Part shown: positions 2,289 through 18,668 of the stretch, piece by piece
How the letters are laid out: each line of letters begins with the position of its first letter
Numbering within the stretch: position 1 is the first letter of the stretch
IMG/VR virus record: IMGVR_UViG_3300034374_010773
Coordinates: 1 to 23,018 of that record
Reading direction: 5' to 3' (one strand)
Length of the DNA stretch: 23,018 bases
Source of the DNA: a virus
Program-made: the position numbers and the translations under genes
The notes under the pieces: model-generated
Database searches by the model: none
What the model was told of the DNA's origin: nothing
Seen by the model: the letters and a program-made list of their open reading frames with translations, nothing else

Positions 2289-3449
2289 ATGGAGCAAAGA
2301 ATACAATATAAGATAGATTTACCTAAAGACATTCTAGTGATTCGAGATGAATTTAAAAAGAATGGCTATAAGTTATATTTAGTGGGAGGAGCAGTGAGAG
2401 ATGCACTATCTGGGATCACTCCTAAGGATTATGATCTAGCCACTGATGCTCTACCTGATGAGGTTGAAAGGATACTTTCACCAATCTATAAAATGTTACC
2501 TATTGGTGAGAAGTTTGGTATATGGCTAGCTGTTACGCCAACCGGTGAATTCGAGATTGCCACTTTTAGAAAAGACGTAGGAACTGGACGTAGACCAGAT
2601 ACGGTTGAATTTACAACAATAGACCAAGATGTACTTAGACGTGATCTAACTATAAATGCGCTTTTTTACGATATTGAAAAGGAGGAGATAGTTGACCTCG
2701 TAGGCGGTGTAGAAGATTTAAAAAATGGTGTAGTAAAAACTGTTGGGGATCCAAAAGATCGCTTTGATGACGATAAACTTAGAAAACTAAGAGCAATACG
2801 TTTTGCAGGTATTACAGGATCAGAATTAGACAAAGAGATAAGAGATTACTTATTAGTGGATTCTGGAATGGAAGAAATATCAGGAGAAAGAATAAGAGAT
2901 GAGTTCTTAAAAGGCATAGCTAAAGCAGCATCGGTTGTTTATTTCATGAACCTCTTAGACAAATATAATTTTTTTAGATCTATTTTTCCAGGTTTAAACA
3001 TTAATGCAGATTATGTAGAAGAAAAAGATTACATAGTAAACCTTGCAACTCTACTTAAAGAGAACGACTCCATAGAGTTGAGAAAAAATTTAAATGCTGC
3101 AAAGTATTCAAATGAAGAAATAAATGGTATAATATTTCTTAAATCCTTGATTCATTTAAATCAAGACAACGCATTAGAAATAAAGCAGAGTCAATCTAAA
3201 GCCAAGATTACCGATGATCAAATTAGAAGATTTGCAGAGTTAAACGGTTTAGACCTTAAATTAATTAATGCTTTTATTAGGTATGCACCAAGTGTTACAG
3301 GAAAACAAGTAATGGATAAAATGAATATTAAAGGTGGACCTGAAGTTGGAAAATATATAAAACAAATGGAGGTAGATATCTTTAAAGACCTAATGTCTAA
3401 TGAATCATACCGCTTTAAGTATATAAAAGAATTTGTAAATTATGAATAA
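2289..3449 (+). CDS. Class II nucleotidyltransferase: CCA-adding enzyme / poly(A) polymerase family
   Basis: The protein has the full N-terminal motif set of the bacterial CCA-adding and poly(A) polymerase family: LVGGAVRD at residues 31-38, the catalytic pair D47-Y-D49, ATFRKD at 91-96, RRDLTINAL at 117-125 and RFDDDKLRKLRAIRF at 158-172, which corresponds to the nucleotide-selecting motif (usually with E at the first D). These enzymes add CCA or A residues to RNA 3' ends using two-metal catalysis. The last 200 residues are poorly conserved helices, as expected for the body and tail of class II enzymes; 386 aa is near normal length. Motifs alone do not settle whether it makes CCA or poly(A). 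It lies 3 nt after the gp15-like gene and its last 8 nt overlap the next gene, so it is expressed with virion genes. Catalytic residues look intact. Confidence 0.9.
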   Translation: MEQRIQYKIDLPKDILVIRDEFKKNGYKLYLVGGAVRDALSGITPKDYDLATDALPDEVERILSPIYKMLPIGEKFGIWLAVTPTGEFEIATFRKDVGTGRRPDTVEFTTIDQDVLRRDLTINALFYDIEKEEIVDLVGGVEDLKNGVVKTVGDPKDRFDDDKLRKLRAIRFAGITGSELDKEIRDYLLVDSGMEEISGERIRDEFLKGIAKAASVVYFMNLLDKYNFFRSIFPGLNINADYVEEKDYIVNLATLLKENDSIELRKNLNAAKYSNEEINGIIFLKSLIHLNQDNALEIKQSQSKAKITDDQIRRFAELNGLDLKLINAFIRYAPSVTGKQVMDKMNIKGGPEVGKYIKQMEVDIFKDLMSNESYRFKYIKEFVNYE

Positions 3450-5860: not shown

Positions 5861-8800
5861 TTAAGAGTAATTTTGTGCAAAGTTTCCATACATATCAGTT
5901 CCATCGTAATAGAATACTATAGTATCTATTGCGCTAGCTCCTGTACTAATTACAGGCGGTGTGCCTCCTGGCCACTTAACCGTTCCTCCTGCTATTGTAT
6001 ATGTTCCAATATTTACAGGAGATGCTGCTTTTTGAATAACTTTTAAGAAATAGGTTCCACCTGCTACTAAATTTGTAAATGTTAATGTAACATCTAGAGT
6101 AGCCGCTGCTAAATCTAAAGGTTGTCCATTTGCATCATTACCATCGAATGTTGCAGCATTTACACTAACTGTAATAGTTGCGCCTTGAGCTGAATTAACC
6201 TGTCCATTAACTGTTACATTTCCGGTTACTTCAAATAAGGTTCCGTTCCAGGTAAGGTTAGCATCTCCTTCAATCGTATCCGCTGCATTAAATACTGCAA
6301 CTCTATTATCTACTCCTCCTGTGGCAGATACTGCGCCTGATACATCAGCTGACGTTATATTCGCCCAGTTTGCTTTACCGTCAAATGTAATTGATTTTAA
6401 AAACTTACCTACTCCTTCTGTACCGTCTGAAAGTTGTACTGCATGTGTGCCTGTTCCTCCGGTTGTTGCACTAATCAGTGCACCTATATTCTCCGCTGAA
6501 CTGTTAAATGCGCTAACTGAAATACCTACGTTATTACCTGTATTACTGGCACCTTGAGCTGAAAAAAGTGCACCTTTTGCAAGACCATTTGTCTTTGTGT
6601 TTATTACTCTTATGCCATTAGTTAAAGTATCTTCTATGTTTAGAGAAGAACTAGGCTCAAATGCTCCTATTGCTAGTGTACTTCCGTTATCCAGTAATGT
6701 TCCTGTCGCAAGCTTATTGTTATTATCTTCCCTAAGAGTAGTATTAACCGAACCTCCTGTAATTGAGTCTCCGATTGTTAATCCTCCATATTCATTTATA
6801 GTCGACCAACTTACATCAGTTCCATCTGATTTAAGGAATGTGTCTACTGCTCCAATTGCTAATGTACTTGATTGATTAGATGAATTTCCTACAAATAAAC
6901 TACCTCTATTTAAGTTAGGTGTAGCGTTGCTTCTTCCTGCACCGCCTACTTTAATTGAACCTGCTGATACGTCTACTCTTTGTACTTTACCTATATTTTG
7001 TATTAGGCTACTTTCTCCTGTTGGTGCTAAGTTAGTTATTTCACCTGCTACAGTTGATACATATAATGTATCTCCTAAACTCCAACCTGGTGTTGAAGTA
7101 TCAATTCCAGATAATGTACCAAATGTAACTACTTCAACAGAAGAATTTAAATTAGCTGAGTCAAATGCTAATCCAAATGCTGGCATTTTATTAGCATCAT
7201 CTGCATCTGCTTTCATTACGATTGGTGTATTACCGCTTATTCCGCTAATGTAAACTACATCTCCTTTTGAAAGTGCTTCTCCAGCTTGAGCATTAAATCT
7301 AATTGCACCTCTAAGGTCTCCTATAAATTCTGCATCTGCTCCACTAACTTCAATTTTACCTTGAACTTCTAATGCTTCTGAAGGTTCAGAGGTACTAAAA
7401 TCTCCAATACCTACATTGGTATTTCTATAAATATTTCCACCTGTTGTTTCTGTCCATAAACCGGATGAAGGAAGACTTTGAGTTGATAGAATACCTGTAG
7501 CGTCTGCCACTACCATTCTAGTTCCAGTTCCTAATAGAGATGATAATTCTACAAATGTAGAATCTAATGTAATTTTAGCAGCTTCAACGTCAGCCGCTGT
7601 TAGGGTTATAATTAAATCCTGAGATCCTCCAAAAGTGGCTGCTTCAAAGGTAATAGTATCTCCTGCAACAAATCCACTACCTTGAGCCGATTTAGCTGCA
7701 GCTCCGCCTCCTGCTGAATATGGAACTGACACTAATATTCTAGTAGCGACTCCTCCGCTTACTTCTACTACTAATTTAAGGTTTATACCTGCTCCACTAG
7801 TTAATACTCCTGTAGAACTTCCTGGTGTTTGATTAGTAAATACTCCATCCGAAGCTCCTACGAAATTCTGGGTAACTGAAGTTATTAAATCAGATCCAAA
7901 TTCAATAGATCCTTTTTCTCTAACACCCATATTAATGTCTCCTGCATTGGAATCTATAGTGATAGTTCCTCCAGGGTATGGAGCCAGTGCATCATTAACT
8001 GTATCTTCTCCTATTCCATTATATGTAATAATATTAAAGCTTCCTCCTTTTGCTTGTAAATCAATCCCTCCTCCAGCAGATGTTGTTCCAGCATTACCTG
8101 TATAAACTTGAAAATCTCCACTTGGATTAAATCTTATATATCGGGTTCCATTAGTAGAACCTGGAAGATAATTACTATCATATCCATAAAATAGAGCGTT
8201 TGTTCCTACAAGATCAAACGTAGTATTTAAAGCATGGTTAAATTCTAATGTAAGCGTGTTATTAGGAGAAGTAAGACCTGGACCTTGGAACATTATAGAT
8301 CCTGTTCCATTTGGATCTAATGTAATAGCACCGTTATTACTATTAGTTTTTAAAGCAAGTTGATTTCCTCCGCCTATTGTTGTTGTACCTGTTGTGGAGT
8401 CTATTGTAATGTTACTTGAAACCGTTCCGGATGATCCCTGATTAAGTACGCTTTGTAAATCTTGTAAATAAGTTGAAGGAATTGATTGCCACTGTCCAGT
8501 ACCATTAAGGTCAGTTGACGTCCATACATATCCAATGTTTCCTTCAGAACCGTCTGAAAATTGCATGGTTCCGTTAAACTTATTAAGTACACTTGCTTCT
8601 ACTTGATGTATACCGTACCATTCTCCACTTCCTTTGGTAATATTTCCTAATTCTCCTAAATATATTTGACTAAGGTCATTTATAGTTACATTAGCATCTG
8701 CTAATAAAGGGTCTCTTAATCTTAGTCCATACACTTCTCCAATTGTTCTAGCACTTCCGGCTTTGTATTTTAAATCCAAATCTGCTCCTACCATTGTTCC

Positions 8801-9778
8801 AGTATGAGTACCATCTGTAGTTATTTCTGCGTTAATACCTACTATCATAGCTGCTCCGGAAGTAGGGAAAGTAACTCCTCTAAATAGAACACCTCCTCCT
8901 ACAGATTTTGCTTCAATTACCACTTGATTAGCAGATCCTTCTGCTAAAAGAATTTTATTTGAAGCTAAGGCTGTTCCTATTGCCATGTTGGTTCCATTAA
9001 ATAATAATCCTCCGTAGTCAAAATTATTACCGGATCCATTTACTCTAGGAACCTGGTATTGTGATCCAAAAGATACTCCTCCTCCTGATATTGCATTATC
9101 AACATATTCTTTATCTACTAGGGATCTTAGTGTATATCCACTATGATAGTTTAAAGCGTATTCTAAACCTTTGCCTAGAATCCCGTCAGTTACTATCATT
9201 CCTGTTTTTGTAATATCTAATTTATTGCTTCCAGTCCCAGTAGAAGTTATTGATAATAAGACTTGACCTCCATTAGCTACATCTATTTTAGATACATCAG
9301 TTAATATATCAGACGTTGCCTGTAATCTATTAAAAGTGCTTCCAATAGTTAAAGCTCTTTGACTAGTTCCTCCTCCGTCATTATTGAATATAATAACTGT
9401 GTCATTTCCTAAATAAGTACTTCCTTCGGTTATTACATTCTGTAAATTAGGAATAGTTCCATTAGATGCTAAGGTAATTCTACCCTGTTGGTCTACTGTT
9501 ATATTTGCGTTTACGTATGATCCAGGAGTAACTGCAGTATCCGCTAAATCAATTGTTCCAGAACCTGTAATAGTTCCTCCATCTAATCCAGTACCTGCTG
9601 TTATTGAAGTAACTGTTCCAAATCCAGCGGCTGATTGCCATGTAACATTACCTAATCCATCTGTTATTAAAGTTTGGCCAGATACGCCATCTGTTACCGG
9701 TAGCTTAAATGCACCATTTCCAATGGTTAATTCATCAACCGATAAATTTATATACTTTCTAGTAGTTTTTGGTGGCAT
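5861..9778 (-). CDS. Long tail fibre protein, 1305 aa
   Basis: This is by far the largest gene here. Composition is typical of phage fibres: very rich in Gly, Ser, Thr, Asn and Ala, with many short beta strands and almost no Cys. The N-terminal 110 residues (ending in GTGLDGGTITGSGTIDLADT and a segment with ITVDQQGRITLASNG) form a motif widely seen in fibre shafts. Four sites share a DG-x-x-G... DG-x-(G)-x-(V/A)-x-W pattern, near residues 24-50, 405-430, 975-990 and 1112-1137. A globular-looking module lies at about 835-920 (LSKGDVVYISGISGNTPIVM; WSLGDTLYVSTVAGEI). The C terminus (about 1205-1305) is a compact beta domain ending FYYDGTDMYGNFAQNYS, a common fibre ending. No intramolecular chaperone domain of the S74 type was seen. 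The start has an ATAAATA motif 21 nt upstream. Confidence 0.9.
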   Translation of the reverse strand: MPPKTTRKYINLSVDELTIGNGAFKLPVTDGVSGQTLITDGLGNVTWQSAAGFGTVTSITAGTGLDGGTITGSGTIDLADTAVTPGSYVNANITVDQQGRITLASNGTIPNLQNVITEGSTYLGNDTVIIFNNDGGGTSQRALTIGSTFNRLQATSDILTDVSKIDVANGGQVLLSITSTGTGSNKLDITKTGMIVTDGILGKGLEYALNYHSGYTLRSLVDKEYVDNAISGGGVSFGSQYQVPRVNGSGNNFDYGGLLFNGTNMAIGTALASNKILLAEGSANQVVIEAKSVGGGVLFRGVTFPTSGAAMIVGINAEITTDGTHTGTMVGADLDLKYKAGSARTIGEVYGLRLRDPLLADANVTINDLSQIYLGELGNITKGSGEWYGIHQVEASVLNKFNGTMQFSDGSEGNIGYVWTSTDLNGTGQWQSIPSTYLQDLQSVLNQGSSGTVSSNITIDSTTGTTTIGGGNQLALKTNSNNGAITLDPNGTGSIMFQGPGLTSPNNTLTLEFNHALNTTFDLVGTNALFYGYDSNYLPGSTNGTRYIRFNPSGDFQVYTGNAGTTSAGGGIDLQAKGGSFNIITYNGIGEDTVNDALAPYPGGTITIDSNAGDINMGVREKGSIEFGSDLITSVTQNFVGASDGVFTNQTPGSSTGVLTSGAGINLKLVVEVSGGVATRILVSVPYSAGGGAAAKSAQGSGFVAGDTITFEAATFGGSQDLIITLTAADVEAAKITLDSTFVELSSLLGTGTRMVVADATGILSTQSLPSSGLWTETTGGNIYRNTNVGIGDFSTSEPSEALEVQGKIEVSGADAEFIGDLRGAIRFNAQAGEALSKGDVVYISGISGNTPIVMKADADDANKMPAFGLAFDSANLNSSVEVVTFGTLSGIDTSTPGWSLGDTLYVSTVAGEITNLAPTGESSLIQNIGKVQRVDVSAGSIKVGGAGRSNATPNLNRGSLFVGNSSNQSSTLAIGAVDTFLKSDGTDVSWSTINEYGGLTIGDSITGGSVNTTLREDNNNKLATGTLLDNGSTLAIGAFEPSSSLNIEDTLTNGIRVINTKTNGLAKGALFSAQGASNTGNNVGISVSAFNSSAENIGALISATTGGTGTHAVQLSDGTEGVGKFLKSITFDGKANWANITSADVSGAVSATGGVDNRVAVFNAADTIEGDANLTWNGTLFEVTGNVTVNGQVNSAQGATITVSVNAATFDGNDANGQPLDLAAATLDVTLTFTNLVAGGTYFLKVIQKAASPVNIGTYTIAGGTVKWPGGTPPVISTGASAIDTIVFYYDGTDMYGNFAQNYS

Positions 9779-9825: not shown

Positions 9826-11280
9826 TTACGCCATAATAACCGCTTTTAGATTAGTAGGTGAAGTGGATAGAATTTCAACTGTATTTAATGTAGCATTTTT
9901 AATTGCTAAAGACGCAACTATACCTCCTGGAACAGCATCCATGTCCCATACTTGAACTATGACATCTTGACTATTTAAATTATGAGTAATAGTGTCCCAT
10001 GCCATACCTCCAGTTGATAAGTATTCCTCTACGTATTTTTTATTGTTTACCCATTCTTTAGTTACGTAAGCATTATCTGCTTGAGAATCTATTGCCGCGG
10101 TTGAATCTCCTGGGTTCCAAACATTTGCATTATCTGTCCATAGTATATGATTTCCAAACGTAGTATTTCCTTGATTTAGTACATATGATATATTAGTAGC
10201 GGTTTGCTCAAGAGAACCTGTTGGGCTCTGAATATATGTACCGTTTTGAATAAAATTACCGTTTACTATAACTAACCTTCCATCGTTAGTAAGGGTTACT
10301 CCTGGGTCTATTGTTAAGTCTCCCCATACAATATACATTGCGTTTTCAGGAATAGTCATATCGGATGTAATTGTATGGAATATTCCAACTCCATCTCCTG
10401 TTCCACCTCCTGCTGATACTACAACTACCCTAACGCTTGATATGTCTTGAGTAAAGGTTACATCAATAGCGTTTAATACGTAATTATCTATATGAGCGTC
10501 AACTCTATCACCTGTTGTAGTGTCTATGAAATCAACTACTACACTGTTTGTTCCTAATCCGTGAGAAATTGTTTTAGTGACATTAGCGGTAAAACTGGTT
10601 GTTTCTACATAAGATGCATTGGTTCCACCTCCGCCTCCACCGCCGCAGCATGTTAGACTAAAGATTTGACCGTTTTCATCTGTAAAGTAAAGGTCTTGAG
10701 TAGTTGGATGTAAATGTGTTTCTAATCCAGGGTCTCCTATCCAAACAATACCACTTCCTGAATCAGGTGTATCTGGAATACCGGGACTTCCTAATTGTTC
10801 TAAAAGAGTTAATTGATAAAATAATCCACCGCCTCCGGTTAAACTTACCCAACCTCTACCGTCAAGGTATCCTATGAAATCTTCTCCAAATTCAGGTTTT
10901 TGATTTTGAATACCAGTATAGATTATCTCACCAGGTATTCCAAGATCTGGCCAATTATTAAAGTCAGTATGACGATACCTCTTAGCTTCAGCAACTTCAA
11001 CTAAAAATGAGTTACCTTCAGCTCTACCTTGGGAATCAATATTAAATGTAGTTAATCCATTAAGCTTTATACTTAAGTTATTATCTACGTTAATATACTT
11101 TACATTGAGGCTATCTAACCCCTCTATGGTGTTAGTTGTTTCATCATATGAAACATTATTCAAAAATTCCAATAAAGCATTAGATAGGTCGTTAAAGTTA
11201 AGGTTTGAAACCTCTATAATTGAACCTAGACTTGAATTGGTTAATTTTCTTATATTTGAAAGTTTGGAATATATAGCCAT
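9826..11280 (-). CDS. Tail fibre/baseplate-attached fibre protein with duplicated beta domain, 484 aa
   Basis: The N-terminal part (1-90) is helical and could attach the fibre (MAIYSKLSNIRKLTNSS...). Residues 105-210 are Gly/Pro-rich beta segments (FIGYLDGRGWVSLTGGGG), ending in an unusual C211-C212 followed by seven glycines (213-219). Residues 229-289 and 427-484 are two copies of one small domain: each has TI-(S/T)-H-x-L, a VVVDFID/VIVQVWD strand, an LN-x-(I/V)-x-(V) step and a VVVVSA/AVIMA end. This 'HxL-x-S-x-x-V-x-V-x-V' domain is common in phage fibre tips. Between them, residues 308-346 (YIVWGDLTIDPGVTLTNDGR) look like a short beta-solenoid. An AGGA sequence about 7 nt before the ATG is one of the few Shine-Dalgarno-like sites in the cassette. 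It lies upstream of the long fibre and is probably part of the same adhesion structure. Confidence 0.8.
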   Translation of the reverse strand: MAIYSKLSNIRKLTNSSLGSIIEVSNLNFNDLSNALLEFLNNVSYDETTNTIEGLDSLNVKYINVDNNLSIKLNGLTTFNIDSQGRAEGNSFLVEVAEAKRYRHTDFNNWPDLGIPGEIIYTGIQNQKPEFGEDFIGYLDGRGWVSLTGGGGLFYQLTLLEQLGSPGIPDTPDSGSGIVWIGDPGLETHLHPTTQDLYFTDENGQIFSLTCCGGGGGGGTNASYVETTSFTANVTKTISHGLGTNSVVVDFIDTTTGDRVDAHIDNYVLNAIDVTFTQDISSVRVVVVSAGGGTGDGVGIFHTITSDMTIPENAMYIVWGDLTIDPGVTLTNDGRLVIVNGNFIQNGTYIQSPTGSLEQTATNISYVLNQGNTTFGNHILWTDNANVWNPGDSTAAIDSQADNAYVTKEWVNNKKYVEEYLSTGGMAWDTITHNLNSQDVIVQVWDMDAVPGGIVASLAIKNATLNTVEILSTSPTNLKAVIMA

Positions 11281-11323: not shown

Positions 11324-12652
11324 CTAATTATTACGTGATTTATTTATCAATTCTGTTTTTTCGTCTATGCTAGATTCTTTAGAAAAGTTTCCATCAAAGA
11401 CGACACAATTATATAGATCAGCGTTAATAATATCATCAAGGTTGCTATAGATTGAAGATGACTTTATTTCGTTTAAATATCCTCCGTATTTACAGTCAAA
11501 GATCTTAGAGTATTTTATATCGTTATTAGAATATAACATGCTTTCTTTGATGCTTGAGTTTCTAATTACACACTGTTCAAATAAACAGTCTTCTAAATCA
11601 GCTTCTATATGACAATTAAAGAAGTCTATTCCACTTAAAGAAAAACCTTTTTTAATTCTAGCATCCTTTACTTGTACTCTTTTTCTAGCTGTATCGTAAT
11701 TTATTATAGCCTTATTCATTTCGCAACAAGATATAAGCTCAAATAACTTATTTCTTATCATCTGATAATTAGACTCCACTAAAAAAGAGTGATTTTTTAA
11801 ATCAACAAATAGAGGTATCTCCGGAAACGAGTGCTTAAATATTTCATAAGACTTAGTAGAATCTATAATCTTTTGATATCTTTCTAATAATCTTTGAATT
11901 TTTCTTTTTTCATTTAAGTCAAATGAAAAGTTATTAGTTAAAGTATTATACACGTGTTCAGCTGTGTAGTTAATTAACTCAACTGTTTCTTTTTTCTTTT
12001 TTTGATAACCTTTTCCTCCTGCGTATTTTACAGATACATATCCATCCATTAGGTTAGAAAAATCTGTTCCAAAATTAGAAGATCTTGGAAAATTATATTC
12101 CATAGGATTAGCTTTCTCTAATAAAGAACCTGTAAGCCTACTTGAATATAATTCTTTAGGAAAAATAAAAATAGCTTTACTTTGATGTATCTTTTGTTTT
12201 TCTGATGATGACTCTGGCCACATCTTAAATATCCTACTTTCATCGATATTTAAAATATATTTAAACTTATTTAGGTTTTCTAACTTATATTTTAAGTTTA
12301 AATCCATTTCATTAACAGATACTTTAATATTCATATTAGATCTGCTACTGGTAAATCCATTCTCATTAATGAAATTCATACACTTTAACATTGTATGAAT
12401 AGCCTTGTGATAAGGCATTAAATCTGTATCAATTCTTTTCATCCTATGACCACCTTCAAAGTCAGGTGATACGTATATGGCTTCGTCTACGAATTTTATC
12501 TTTGACTTGTTATCTAATGGTATTACGTTTTTACCCAAATATTTAGCTAACTTTCTAGATATCTTATCGTTAGATAGTGGTGAAAAAAACTGAAACGTAA
12601 ATCCTACATTAGTATTGTCAAAAAGAAACTTATTTTCGATATTATTATACAC
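11324..12652 (-). CDS. Amidoligase-like domain fused to pentapeptide-style beta-helix, 442 aa
   Basis: Residues about 15-240 have the strand-helix order of phage and bacterial amidoligase-like proteins (glutamine-synthetase/COOH-NH2 ligase fold): GFTFQFFSPL at 17-26, EGGHRMKRIDTDLMPYHKAI at 66-85, GFTSSRSNMNIKVSV at 99-113 and YVSVKYAGGKGYQ at 205-217. In active amidoligases the first strand ends in E-x-E and the third has S-S-G-(L/I)-H-(I/V)-(H/N); here these are F-Q and N-M-N-I-K, so catalysis is doubtful. Residues about 328-425 form short repeats such as DFFNCHIEADLEDCLFEQC and IRNSSIKESMLYSN, with the A-D/N-L-x-x-C rhythm of pentapeptide or right-handed beta-helix proteins. The start is GTG at 12652; no ATG is nearer. 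It sits first among the large genes of the fibre cassette. Family assignment is tentative and rests on motif reading. Confidence 0.55.
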   Translation of the reverse strand: MYNNIENKFLFDNTNVGFTFQFFSPLSNDKISRKLAKYLGKNVIPLDNKSKIKFVDEAIYVSPDFEGGHRMKRIDTDLMPYHKAIHTMLKCMNFINENGFTSSRSNMNIKVSVNEMDLNLKYKLENLNKFKYILNIDESRIFKMWPESSSEKQKIHQSKAIFIFPKELYSSRLTGSLLEKANPMEYNFPRSSNFGTDFSNLMDGYVSVKYAGGKGYQKKKKETVELINYTAEHVYNTLTNNFSFDLNEKRKIQRLLERYQKIIDSTKSYEIFKHSFPEIPLFVDLKNHSFLVESNYQMIRNKLFELISCCEMNKAIINYDTARKRVQVKDARIKKGFSLSGIDFFNCHIEADLEDCLFEQCVIRNSSIKESMLYSNNDIKYSKIFDCKYGGYLNEIKSSSIYSNLDDIINADLYNCVVFDGNFSKESSIDEKTELINKSRNN

Positions 12653-12698: not shown

Positions 12699-12923
12699 TT
12701 AATCAACTAATTGTATAGATACTTCATCTTTGTGAATCCATACTTCATTTCCATTCATAAAAGCAAGTTCATCCAACTTATTATGTAAATATGTTTTAGT
12801 TGGGTATTTAGCTAACTGATAAACACCTGTTTCGTATCTCCATGCAAATTCAAATTCTTTTTTTACTATTAACTCAGGTAAGGTGTCTAATTTATTTGCG
12901 TAATCTGTGATTAATACTTTCAT
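12699..12923 (-). CDS. Small protein of unknown function, first gene of the minus-strand cassette
   Basis: The 74-aa product reads MKVLITDYANKLDTLPELI, a basic KKEFEFAWRY, and an acidic end (EVWIHKDEVSIQLVD). It has no membrane segment, signal peptide or Cys. The pattern suggests a small alpha/beta fold. It faces the gp6-like gene across a 66-nt divergent promoter region and is followed by the amidoligase-like gene. The promoter in front of it (TAGTATAATAT) differs from the ATAAATA type seen elsewhere, so it may be expressed at a different time. I do not recognise a family. Confidence 0.6.
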   Translation of the reverse strand: MKVLITDYANKLDTLPELIVKKEFEFAWRYETGVYQLAKYPTKTYLHNKLDELAFMNGNEVWIHKDEVSIQLVD

Positions 12924-12989: not shown

Positions 12990-14648
12990 ATGGCAACAAC
13001 TGCTTCAAATTGGAAAATATTTAAATCTCTAGACTATTCAATACAGTTAATGTTAAAGCAGACAATAACGTATCTGTCTGATAAATTTAATCAAAGTCTA
13101 CAAGTATTCACTGCAGCCAGTCCTTTTGGTCAGATATTATTAGTACTAGAAAATATTAGTCAAATGATATTTTACTACATAGAGGATGCCATAACTGAAT
13201 TAAGTATAATTGATGCAACTAGAGTATCTTCAATATATTCACTAGCTACCTTAGCTGGACATAGTCCAAGTAGAGCTATTTCAGCTAGTGGAGAAATAAG
13301 CTTAACTACAACATCTGATTCTGCAAGTGCAGATTTTGATGTTATCATTATTCCAAACCTAACCAAATTAAAGTCTAGAAACAATGGACTTAATTACGTT
13401 CTAAGTTTACCACAAGATGATATTAAATTTTCAATGAAAGGAACCACAAATGGAACCTCAATGAAAATACTTCAAGGAGACATAGAAACTCAAACATTAA
13501 CGGCTAAAGGTGAAGAGATAGAAAGTTTTTCAATAAACTCAGCTCAAAATTATCTAGTTGATAACTACATGGTAAATGTTTATATCAATGGTGAAAAGTG
13601 GAAAAGATTTAATTCAATGCTAGATATACCTAGAGGAGAAAAAGGGTATGTAGTAAAAACTGGAATAACTACAGGAGTTGACATATTTTTTGGAAATGAC
13701 TTCTATGGTAAAATACCTGGAAAAGGATCTGAAATAAAAGTAGAATATTTAGTAAACAGCGGTGCTGCTGGAAACATAACAACTGAGCAGGTTTCTCAAG
13801 TATTATTTGAATGGTCAGACACTGGCTTTACTTTAACTGGAAAAGAGGTTGACTTAAATACCTATATTAGAATAGACACTGTGCATTCACCTCAATTTGG
13901 AGCAAATCCAGAGGATTCAGAACTAACTAGATTATTAGCACCTAAACAGTCAAAGAGTTTCGCATTAGTTAACATAGACCATTATGATTCAGTATTAACT
14001 AGATTAAAGATATTCTCAATAATAAATGTTTTCTTAGATGAAAATGACAGTAGGATGTTAAACCTATTCCTAGTGCCAGATATTAATAAAATGTTTAATA
14101 CTGGTCAGGATTATTTTAACGTAGACCCTTCTAAATTTAAATTAACAGAATTTAGAAAAAATGAAATAGAGAGATATTTAAATATGACTGGTTCTAAATT
14201 GATATCAACAGACATTAAAATAGTAGATCCTATCATTAAAAAATACGTAATCAATATAAGCACTATAGTATTTGATGATATTGCACCTGAGATAATTAAA
14301 AGAGACATATATAATAGCCTAGGTAACTACTTTATAGAGAATAAAAGAAGACATCGAATACCTAAGAGTGACTTAATAAAGATTATAGAAGAGATAAACG
14401 GTATAGATTCAGTAAACCTAAATATCGTGTCTGAAGCAAATGAAATATCATACATAGAAGACCCGGAAAACGATTTAGTAGGATTAGATGAATTTAACGA
14501 TATTATATTAGAAGACTATGAATTAGCTATTATACAAGGCGGATTTATAGATAGATATGGAAATGAATATTCACAAGGTATTTCTGATCAAGCATTAGGA
14601 TCTGTTAATATACAAATTAAAAAAATAGTGCCAAGGCCATTTAAATAG
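12990..14648 (+). CDS. T4 gp6-like baseplate wedge protein (baseplate J class)
   Basis: The 552-aa protein (T4 gp6 is 660 aa) carries the baseplate J hallmark at about residues 234-263: FGNDFYGKIPGKGSEIKVEY then LVNSGAAGNI, matching the family pattern F-G-(D/N)-x-x-x-G-x-x-P-x-x-G-x-x-I-x-V-x-Y ... G-A-A-G-N. The N terminus is helical (IQLMLKQTITYLSDKFNQS), and the middle of the protein (residues 60-100) has the 'A-T-R-x-S-S-I-Y-S-L-A-x-L-A-G-H' segment seen in gp6-like proteins. gp6 forms the inner ring of the baseplate wedge and drives its expansion on attachment. It is transcribed away from the fibre cassette, with an ATAAATA motif 17 nt upstream. The following 81-aa gene starts 1 nt after its stop. 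In T4 the gene lies with other wedge genes, not in front of the terminase genes. Confidence 0.85.
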   Translation: MATTASNWKIFKSLDYSIQLMLKQTITYLSDKFNQSLQVFTAASPFGQILLVLENISQMIFYYIEDAITELSIIDATRVSSIYSLATLAGHSPSRAISASGEISLTTTSDSASADFDVIIIPNLTKLKSRNNGLNYVLSLPQDDIKFSMKGTTNGTSMKILQGDIETQTLTAKGEEIESFSINSAQNYLVDNYMVNVYINGEKWKRFNSMLDIPRGEKGYVVKTGITTGVDIFFGNDFYGKIPGKGSEIKVEYLVNSGAAGNITTEQVSQVLFEWSDTGFTLTGKEVDLNTYIRIDTVHSPQFGANPEDSELTRLLAPKQSKSFALVNIDHYDSVLTRLKIFSIINVFLDENDSRMLNLFLVPDINKMFNTGQDYFNVDPSKFKLTEFRKNEIERYLNMTGSKLISTDIKIVDPIIKKYVINISTIVFDDIAPEIIKRDIYNSLGNYFIENKRRHRIPKSDLIKIIEEINGIDSVNLNIVSEANEISYIEDPENDLVGLDEFNDIILEDYELAIIQGGFIDRYGNEYSQGISDQALGSVNIQIKKIVPRPFK

Positions 14649-18005: not shown

Positions 18006-18668
18006 ATGCAAGGATTTGACGAACTAAACAAAAAGATTAACAACAGAATACAGCAATTATCAATACTAGTACATAACAAAGAAAATACTCAAAGAGAATA
18101 TGACGAATTAGCAGAATTAATATATCCAAAATTAAAATATCATATTTGGAAATTTTGCAAAAACAATCTAGACACTGAAGAGGCGTTACATTTTACTCTA
18201 GTCAAAGTGTTTAATAATATCGATAAGTATAATCCAGAAAATGGTAGATTTACAACATGGGCTTTTACAATAGCCAGGAATGAAACCTTATACTATTTAG
18301 ATAGAAAACATAAAGACATTCCAAAATATATTGAAATATCTACTCTTTACGAAGATAGCGAGTACAATGATCAGTTAAGTGCAGAGGATAAACAGAATAA
18401 TCATAATGAAGTAACTGATATCTTCAATAAAACTATCTCACAGATATACAATCTTAAAGATGAACTTCTTAAAAACATAGCCATTGACAAAATGGTTAAG
18501 AACACCAAAGTAAAAGAAATAGCTCTTAAATATGGAATACCTGAAAATACAGTTAAAACTAAACTAAGAAAAGCCAGGTTTGAAATAAGAAAGTCTGTAA
18601 TACAAGAAGATCCAGAAGTAAATAGAAAGCTATCAGATTCATTACCAAATTTCAAAGTAAAATCTTAA
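18006..18668 (+). CDS. ECF-like sigma-70 family RNA polymerase sigma factor, candidate late sigma
   Basis: 220 aa. Sigma region 2 lies at about 33-103: the core helix has YHIWKFCKNNLDTEEALH and the promoter-melting/-10 helix reads RFTTWAFTIARNETLYYLDR (81-100), a clear match to the F-x-x-W-L/A-F-x-I-A-R-N pattern of extracytoplasmic-function sigma factors. Region 4 lies at 145-198, with a helix-turn-helix at 168-191 (KVKEIALKYGIPENTVKTKL). There is no region 1.1 or 3, as in ECF sigmas. The linker (104-144) is long and acidic. T4 late transcription uses the small sigma gp55 (185 aa) to read TATAAATA; the many ATAAATA motifs here, including one in front of this gene, suggest that this protein serves the same end. 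The next gene begins 3 nt after its stop. Confidence 0.9.
   Translation: MQGFDELNKKINNRIQQLSILVHNKENTQREYDELAELIYPKLKYHIWKFCKNNLDTEEALHFTLVKVFNNIDKYNPENGRFTTWAFTIARNETLYYLDRKHKDIPKYIEISTLYEDSEYNDQLSAEDKQNNHNEVTDIFNKTISQIYNLKDELLKNIAIDKMVKNTKVKEIALKYGIPENTVKTKLRKARFEIRKSVIQEDPEVNRKLSDSLPNFKVKS

Follow-up and report, generated by a model that had tools for sequence, protein, structure and literature searches.

The stretch of DNA analysed here, referred to below as the window, comes from a virus and forms a record of 23 kb (23,018 nucleotides) in which the gene under study lies among fibre and baseplate genes (Table 1). An earlier note, made from the letters alone, had placed an open reading frame at 11324-12652; this frame exists, and it is read from the minus strand. 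At the place matching its start codon, GTG is found in eight of nine distinct homologues and ATG in one. Searches of the window for RNA families and tRNAs returned none. The short ORF separating the gene from the gp6-like baseplate wedge gene is conserved in most of the lineage (59-81%), and in lineage member L017 it was not found by BLAST. The gp6-like gene is followed by a T4-type terminase gene. Among the matches listed for it, the best come from huge-phage records, which reach 392 bits, from Sphingomonas phage PAU, at 288 bits, and from cyanophages. The window also holds a long fibre-like gene, a tRNA nucleotidyltransferase/poly(A) polymerase gene and a sigma-70-type gene, the last of which perhaps encodes a late-gene sigma factor.

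Table 1. Features of the window and of the amidoligase-like gene
Feature	Residues	Coordinates	Strand	Evidence or remark
tRNA nucleotidyltransferase / poly(A) polymerase gene		2289-3449	plus	PF01743, E 3.2e-34; inside structural region
1305-aa fibre-like protein		5861-9778	minus	no convincing family match; homologue length varies strongly in lineage
Adjacent fibre-like gene		9826..11280	minus	N-terminus conserved beside amidoligase gene in window and sister clades
Whole gene: degenerate glutamine synthetase (GS)-like amidoligase domain and pentapeptide beta-helix		11324..12652	minus	442 aa, GTG start at 12652
Pentapeptide-type beta-helix	316-437	11342..11707	minus	DSSP; Pfam Pentapeptide_4 in homologues
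Amidoligase (GS-like) domain, catalytic-type residues replaced	1-262	11867..12652	minus	homologue alignment, Foldseek
S-V-K at invariant E-x-R (LEFRY)	207-209	12026..12034	minus	E, R in 45/45 relatives
Loop; relatives carry FPxRxxxxYAKSIK...PxxKYYGxNF, lost here	146-205	12038..12217	minus	low-confidence model
N-M-N-I-K at G-x-H-x-H / G-x-H-x-N position	106-110	12323..12337	minus	GIHLN etc. in relatives, GFHVH in L221
R73 at invariant Glu of ELVTG (PF12224 'EIITPP')	73	12434..12436	minus	E in 45/45 relatives; R/S in window clade
T-F-Q at E-x-E position	19-21	12590..12598	minus	both E in 45/45 relatives; T/S and Q in window clade
74-aa ORF between amidoligase and gp6-like genes		12699-12923	minus	no family match
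gp6-like baseplate wedge gene		12990..14648	plus	PHROG 219, E 3.8e-30; homologue near amidoligase gene in most other relatives
Sigma-70-type factor gene		18006-18668	plus	Sigma70_r2, E 3.6e-12

Taken alone, the window protein gave no useful match in Pfam, PHROGs, NCBIfam or the PDB sequences, and at the curated cut-off of PF12224 (22 bits) neither it nor the lineage members L017, L020 and L013 had a match, so that its resemblance to amidoligases can be demonstrated only via homologues or the fold. Relatives found by tblastn came from six uncultured huge-phage records of 462-735 kb, and scans of IMG/VR yielded 16 confirmed stretches when the window protein was the query, 336 with a mixed alignment and at least 594 with an alignment of sequences with intact motifs. 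Among 36 aligned relatives, 20 match PF12224 at E values up to 1, the best being 3.6e-10. A gene of the clade adjoining that of the window (L168) scores 38.6-39.1 bits, above the cut-off, which is also passed, with 34.7 bits, by the outlying amidoligase L221; the relative L004 matches PHROG 2443, 'amidoligase enzyme', through the homologous domain (E 1.5e-5). By hhalign, the window clade is linked to the relatives with probability 100 and E 4e-56, and the relatives are linked to bacterial PF12224 with E 7.5e-7, whereas no direct link between the window clade and bacterial PF12224 is obtained (E 0.49). The reversed control reached E 0.0091, and weak E values of this kind are therefore meaningless. 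Judged from these comparisons and from the nesting of its clade among the relatives, the window protein is a descendant of the PF12224 family through them, and the link to that family proposed in the earlier note thus holds by way of the relatives and not directly.

The fold points in the same direction. An AlphaFold model of the window protein, with 54 homologues as alignment input (mean pLDDT 84.8, pTM 0.80), predicts an alpha/beta domain followed by short strands from about residue 316 to 436 (DSSP), and an identical two-part architecture is predicted for a relative with intact motifs (pLDDT 90.5). In Foldseek both models match glutamine synthetases with probability 1.00 (E 2.6e-5 for the window model), with low TM-scores of about 0.3 over the whole chain, which places the resemblance only at the level of the shared fold, the GS-like fold of PF12224. 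Furthermore, a long list of phage 'Amidoligase enzyme' models in BFVD is matched by the window model with probability 1.00 (E 7e-11 and weaker), including the amidoligase of Agrobacterium phage Atu_ph07 (E 1.6e-7), and the top match in the viral library is a protein of an uncultured phage with 40% identity (TM 0.93). The reading of the N-terminal part as amidoligase-like, made in the earlier note, is thus borne out by both homologues and structure prediction. The same is true of the pentapeptide-style beta-helix that it had seen at the C-terminus: the strands at residues 316-436 of the model are short and regular, as in the coils of pentapeptide repeats (PF13599/PF00805), and Pentapeptide_4 is matched at E values up to 1 by 11 of 14 aligned homologues (best 5.6e-6). 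At the curated cut-off of the pentapeptide families the window protein has no match, and the lineage members L020 and L013 reach about 15 bits for PF13599, for which the cut-off is 38.

The motifs recognized in the relatives are G-x-E-x-E-F, K-x-E-x-D-x-S-G-G, E-L-[VI]-T, H-x-N-x-S and E-x-R-Y-x-G-G. In the window protein the catalytic-type residues of PF12224 (G-x-E-x-E, the E of E-I/V-T, G-x-H-x-H/N and E-x-R) are all replaced. The first and third of these replacements had been noticed in the earlier note and are confirmed as G17-F-T-F-Q21 and N106-M-N-I-K110; the position of R73 aligns with the bacterial EIITPP motif. Mapping of conserved residues across the homologues agrees with this picture. 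Of the 41 positions that are at least 95% conserved across 45 relatives, 21 are polar and 20 structural; in the window clade, 13 of the former and 4 of the latter have been replaced (Fisher p 0.011). Among the lost residues are the two Glu of E-x-E and the one in ELVTG, Lys together with Glu in K-x-E, three residues of KYYGxN (Lys, Tyr, Asn) and both fixed residues of E-x-R (Glu, Arg). H-x-N, which falls outside the 95% list, has likewise lost its His and Asn. On these alignments, and among the relatives examined, only the window lineage has lost all motifs; the others keep every catalytic-type motif except, in one clade, H-x-N-x-S, replaced there by Q-x-S-x-S. In that clade (L062-L068 and L070-L086; Q-x-N in one member) E-x-E, ELVTG and E-x-R are kept, and partial change of the active site therefore also occurs outside the window clade.

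The window clade consists of 15 contigs carrying nine distinct sequences of a single origin, united in one clade with 100/100 support and nested beside the L022/L168 clade, its sister clade; in both, the loop near residue 150 has a short insertion. The whole gene has a dN/dS of 0.04-0.07 across the lineage, and both of its halves have values of 0.03-0.10, which are rough, dS being near saturation in many pairs; the reading frame is intact in every full-length member examined. Sequencing error and pseudogene decay are ruled out by the 15 contigs, the intact frames and the low dN/dS. No second amidoligase was detected in five lineage records searched with the PF12224 model or in three of them searched with the profile of the relatives, records which, like all those of the window clade, are fragments (the largest is 125 kb), so that an active paralogue could lie elsewhere in the genome.

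Such constraint is compatible with a protein that is still an enzyme and that uses a rebuilt site, made for example of Q21, D75, K110, H156 and K159, to modify the neighbouring fibre or another protein. These five polar residues do not vary within the lineage and are missing from the relatives, and the cleft region is folded on both sides in the model. Nevertheless, 12 of the 16 former active-site-type positions are variable within the lineage; at the 16 lost N-terminal positions invariance is 4/16 in the window clade versus 15/16 in the sister clade, and the E-x-R pair is now S/N/D/E and K/R/S/N. Moreover, no nameable nucleotide-binding motif remains, and model confidence is low over the long loop (pLDDT blocks of 46-68 for residues ~141-200, versus 78-92 in the model of the relative). 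We regard a rebuilt active site as unlikely. The earlier note had left two options, a different active site and an inactive fold used as a structural adaptor, and it is the second that is favoured, because the lineage varies at what used to be active-site positions but conserves its structural residues and the beta-helix.

The beta-helix deserves separate consideration. In pairs with an N-domain identity of 0.7-0.8, its identity is 0.75 in the window clade, 0.65 in the sister clade and 0.63 in the other relatives; the excess over the sister clade at matched N-domain identity, about 11 points, is drawn from non-independent pairs and could equally reflect a relaxed constraint on the N-domain. 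A helix relatively more conserved in the window lineage would be expected if it were the working part of the protein in the cell, either as a DNA mimic acting like Qnr or MfpA on gyrase or as a DNA-binding defence protein, with the amidoligase domain as a mere carrier, and the profile of the relatives does match chains of MfpA, McbG-like and Qnr proteins weakly (E 0.02-1.2). However, chains named beta1 and loop variants match better, which makes the match generic to the fold, and the gene is found among late structural genes, not among early or defence genes, so that a role of this type seems quite improbable.

The gene neighbourhood is the other source of information on function. Outside the sister clade, most of the relatives that have intact motifs share one gene order: a gp5-like hub gene, an S1-domain gene, the amidoligase gene, a gene resembling PHROG 211 (head-tail adaptor), a gp25-like gene and a gp6-like gene. 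In the sister clade the amidoligase gene stands between a neck-protein-like gene and a fibre gene, whose N-terminus is homologous to that of the fibre in the window, and the window clade retains this fibre neighbour. Of the 106 other loci with enough flanking sequence to judge, 93 carry the S1-domain gene directly upstream of the amidoligase gene, within 600 bases of it and in the same orientation, compared with 0/29 loci of the window clade and 0/31 of the sister clade, counts that include repeated fetches of some contigs. This difference could be read as the trace of a substrate partner that moved away, leaving in the window lineage a relaxed and nearly useless amidoligase relic. Such a scenario appears very improbable: purifying selection on intact frames contradicts a relic, the sister clade has kept all motifs without an S1 neighbour, and the S1 gene persists at another place in sister records and in one window-type record of 105 kb. 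By the same token, loss of the S1 partner as the cause of the motif loss was considered and is weakened.

The explanation that we consider probable is that the window protein is a pseudoenzyme retained as a fibre or baseplate adaptor or as an assembly factor. Its ancestor was a phage amidoligase in which a GS-like, ATP-dependent amide-bond-forming domain was joined to a beta-helix of the pentapeptide type, with its gene in the baseplate/fibre region. The window lineage has lost the residues presumed to bind metal, ATP and substrate, and with them presumably the chemistry, while the fold, the beta-helix and the place by the fibre gene have been retained under strong purifying selection. The present role of the protein is most likely one of binding: it would serve as a structural adaptor of fibre and baseplate or would assist the assembly of the neighbouring fibre, and the beta-helix would provide an important contact surface. 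Synteny with fibre and baseplate genes makes the protein a candidate component of the virion, but synteny with fibre genes would also be expected of a fibre-modifying enzyme.

With the GS-like amidoligases described by Iyer et al. (2009, as cited in PMC10580990), which make up Amidoligase_2 (PF12224), the window protein has in common the GS-like fold and a backbone that can be aligned, via the relatives, around G-x-E-x-E, E-I/V-T and G-x-H-x-H/N, but it has none of the motifs and no Pfam score, and it carries a C-terminal beta-helix. L221, in contrast, keeps the classic GFHVH and has a C-terminus without a helix. Pentapeptide repeat proteins (PF13599, PF00805; MfpA, Qnr) have the same type of beta-helix, which here measures about 120 residues and, unlike theirs, follows an amidoligase domain in the same protein and is encoded among structural genes. 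Huge phages (LR756500-LR756504, LR745206) have full-length homologues with 22-26% identity and the same two parts, but in which E-x-E, ELVTG, H-x-N and E-x-R are kept. Amidoligases are absent from the main text of the paper describing huge phages (Al-Shayeb et al., 2020; PMC7162821).

The earlier note had taken the combination of the two domains to be undescribed. In a literature coverage that is incomplete, no account was found of phage tails in which a pentapeptide helix is attached to an amidoligase, and the one publication containing both terms concerns, according to its title and abstract, the lipocone superfamily. The fusion is nonetheless not unique to the window, since hundreds of phage contigs with intact motifs have it. 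In annotations, amidoligases of phages usually figure as genes of metabolism or superinfection (PMC10580990, PMC11318856); the occurrence of hundreds of relatives, with their fused beta-helix, in a T4-like baseplate operon or by a fibre gene suggests a role in tail building or modification. A lineage that has lost the catalytic residues and held the remainder separates an enzymatic from a structural role, and offers a natural experiment on the fused beta-helix. We tentatively entertain, as a possibility that we would not yet call probable, a broader reading in which these proteins form a widespread undescribed class of amidoligase-beta-helix fusions of the phage baseplate/fibre locus, one lineage of which has turned into a purely structural pseudoenzyme. 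If this were true, an ATP-dependent protein-modifying enzyme of the tail locus would have been converted into a part of the tail.

As for the relatives with intact motifs, the S1 protein may be speculated, by analogy with RimK acting on a ribosomal protein, to be a candidate substrate of the amidoligase or its operon partner. The gene matches PF00575 with E values down to 2.6e-27 (L073:6833-7999, L102:4671-5912, L061:6590-7687 and similar), and its product resembles the S1-domain proteins that PMC7162821 reports from huge phages.
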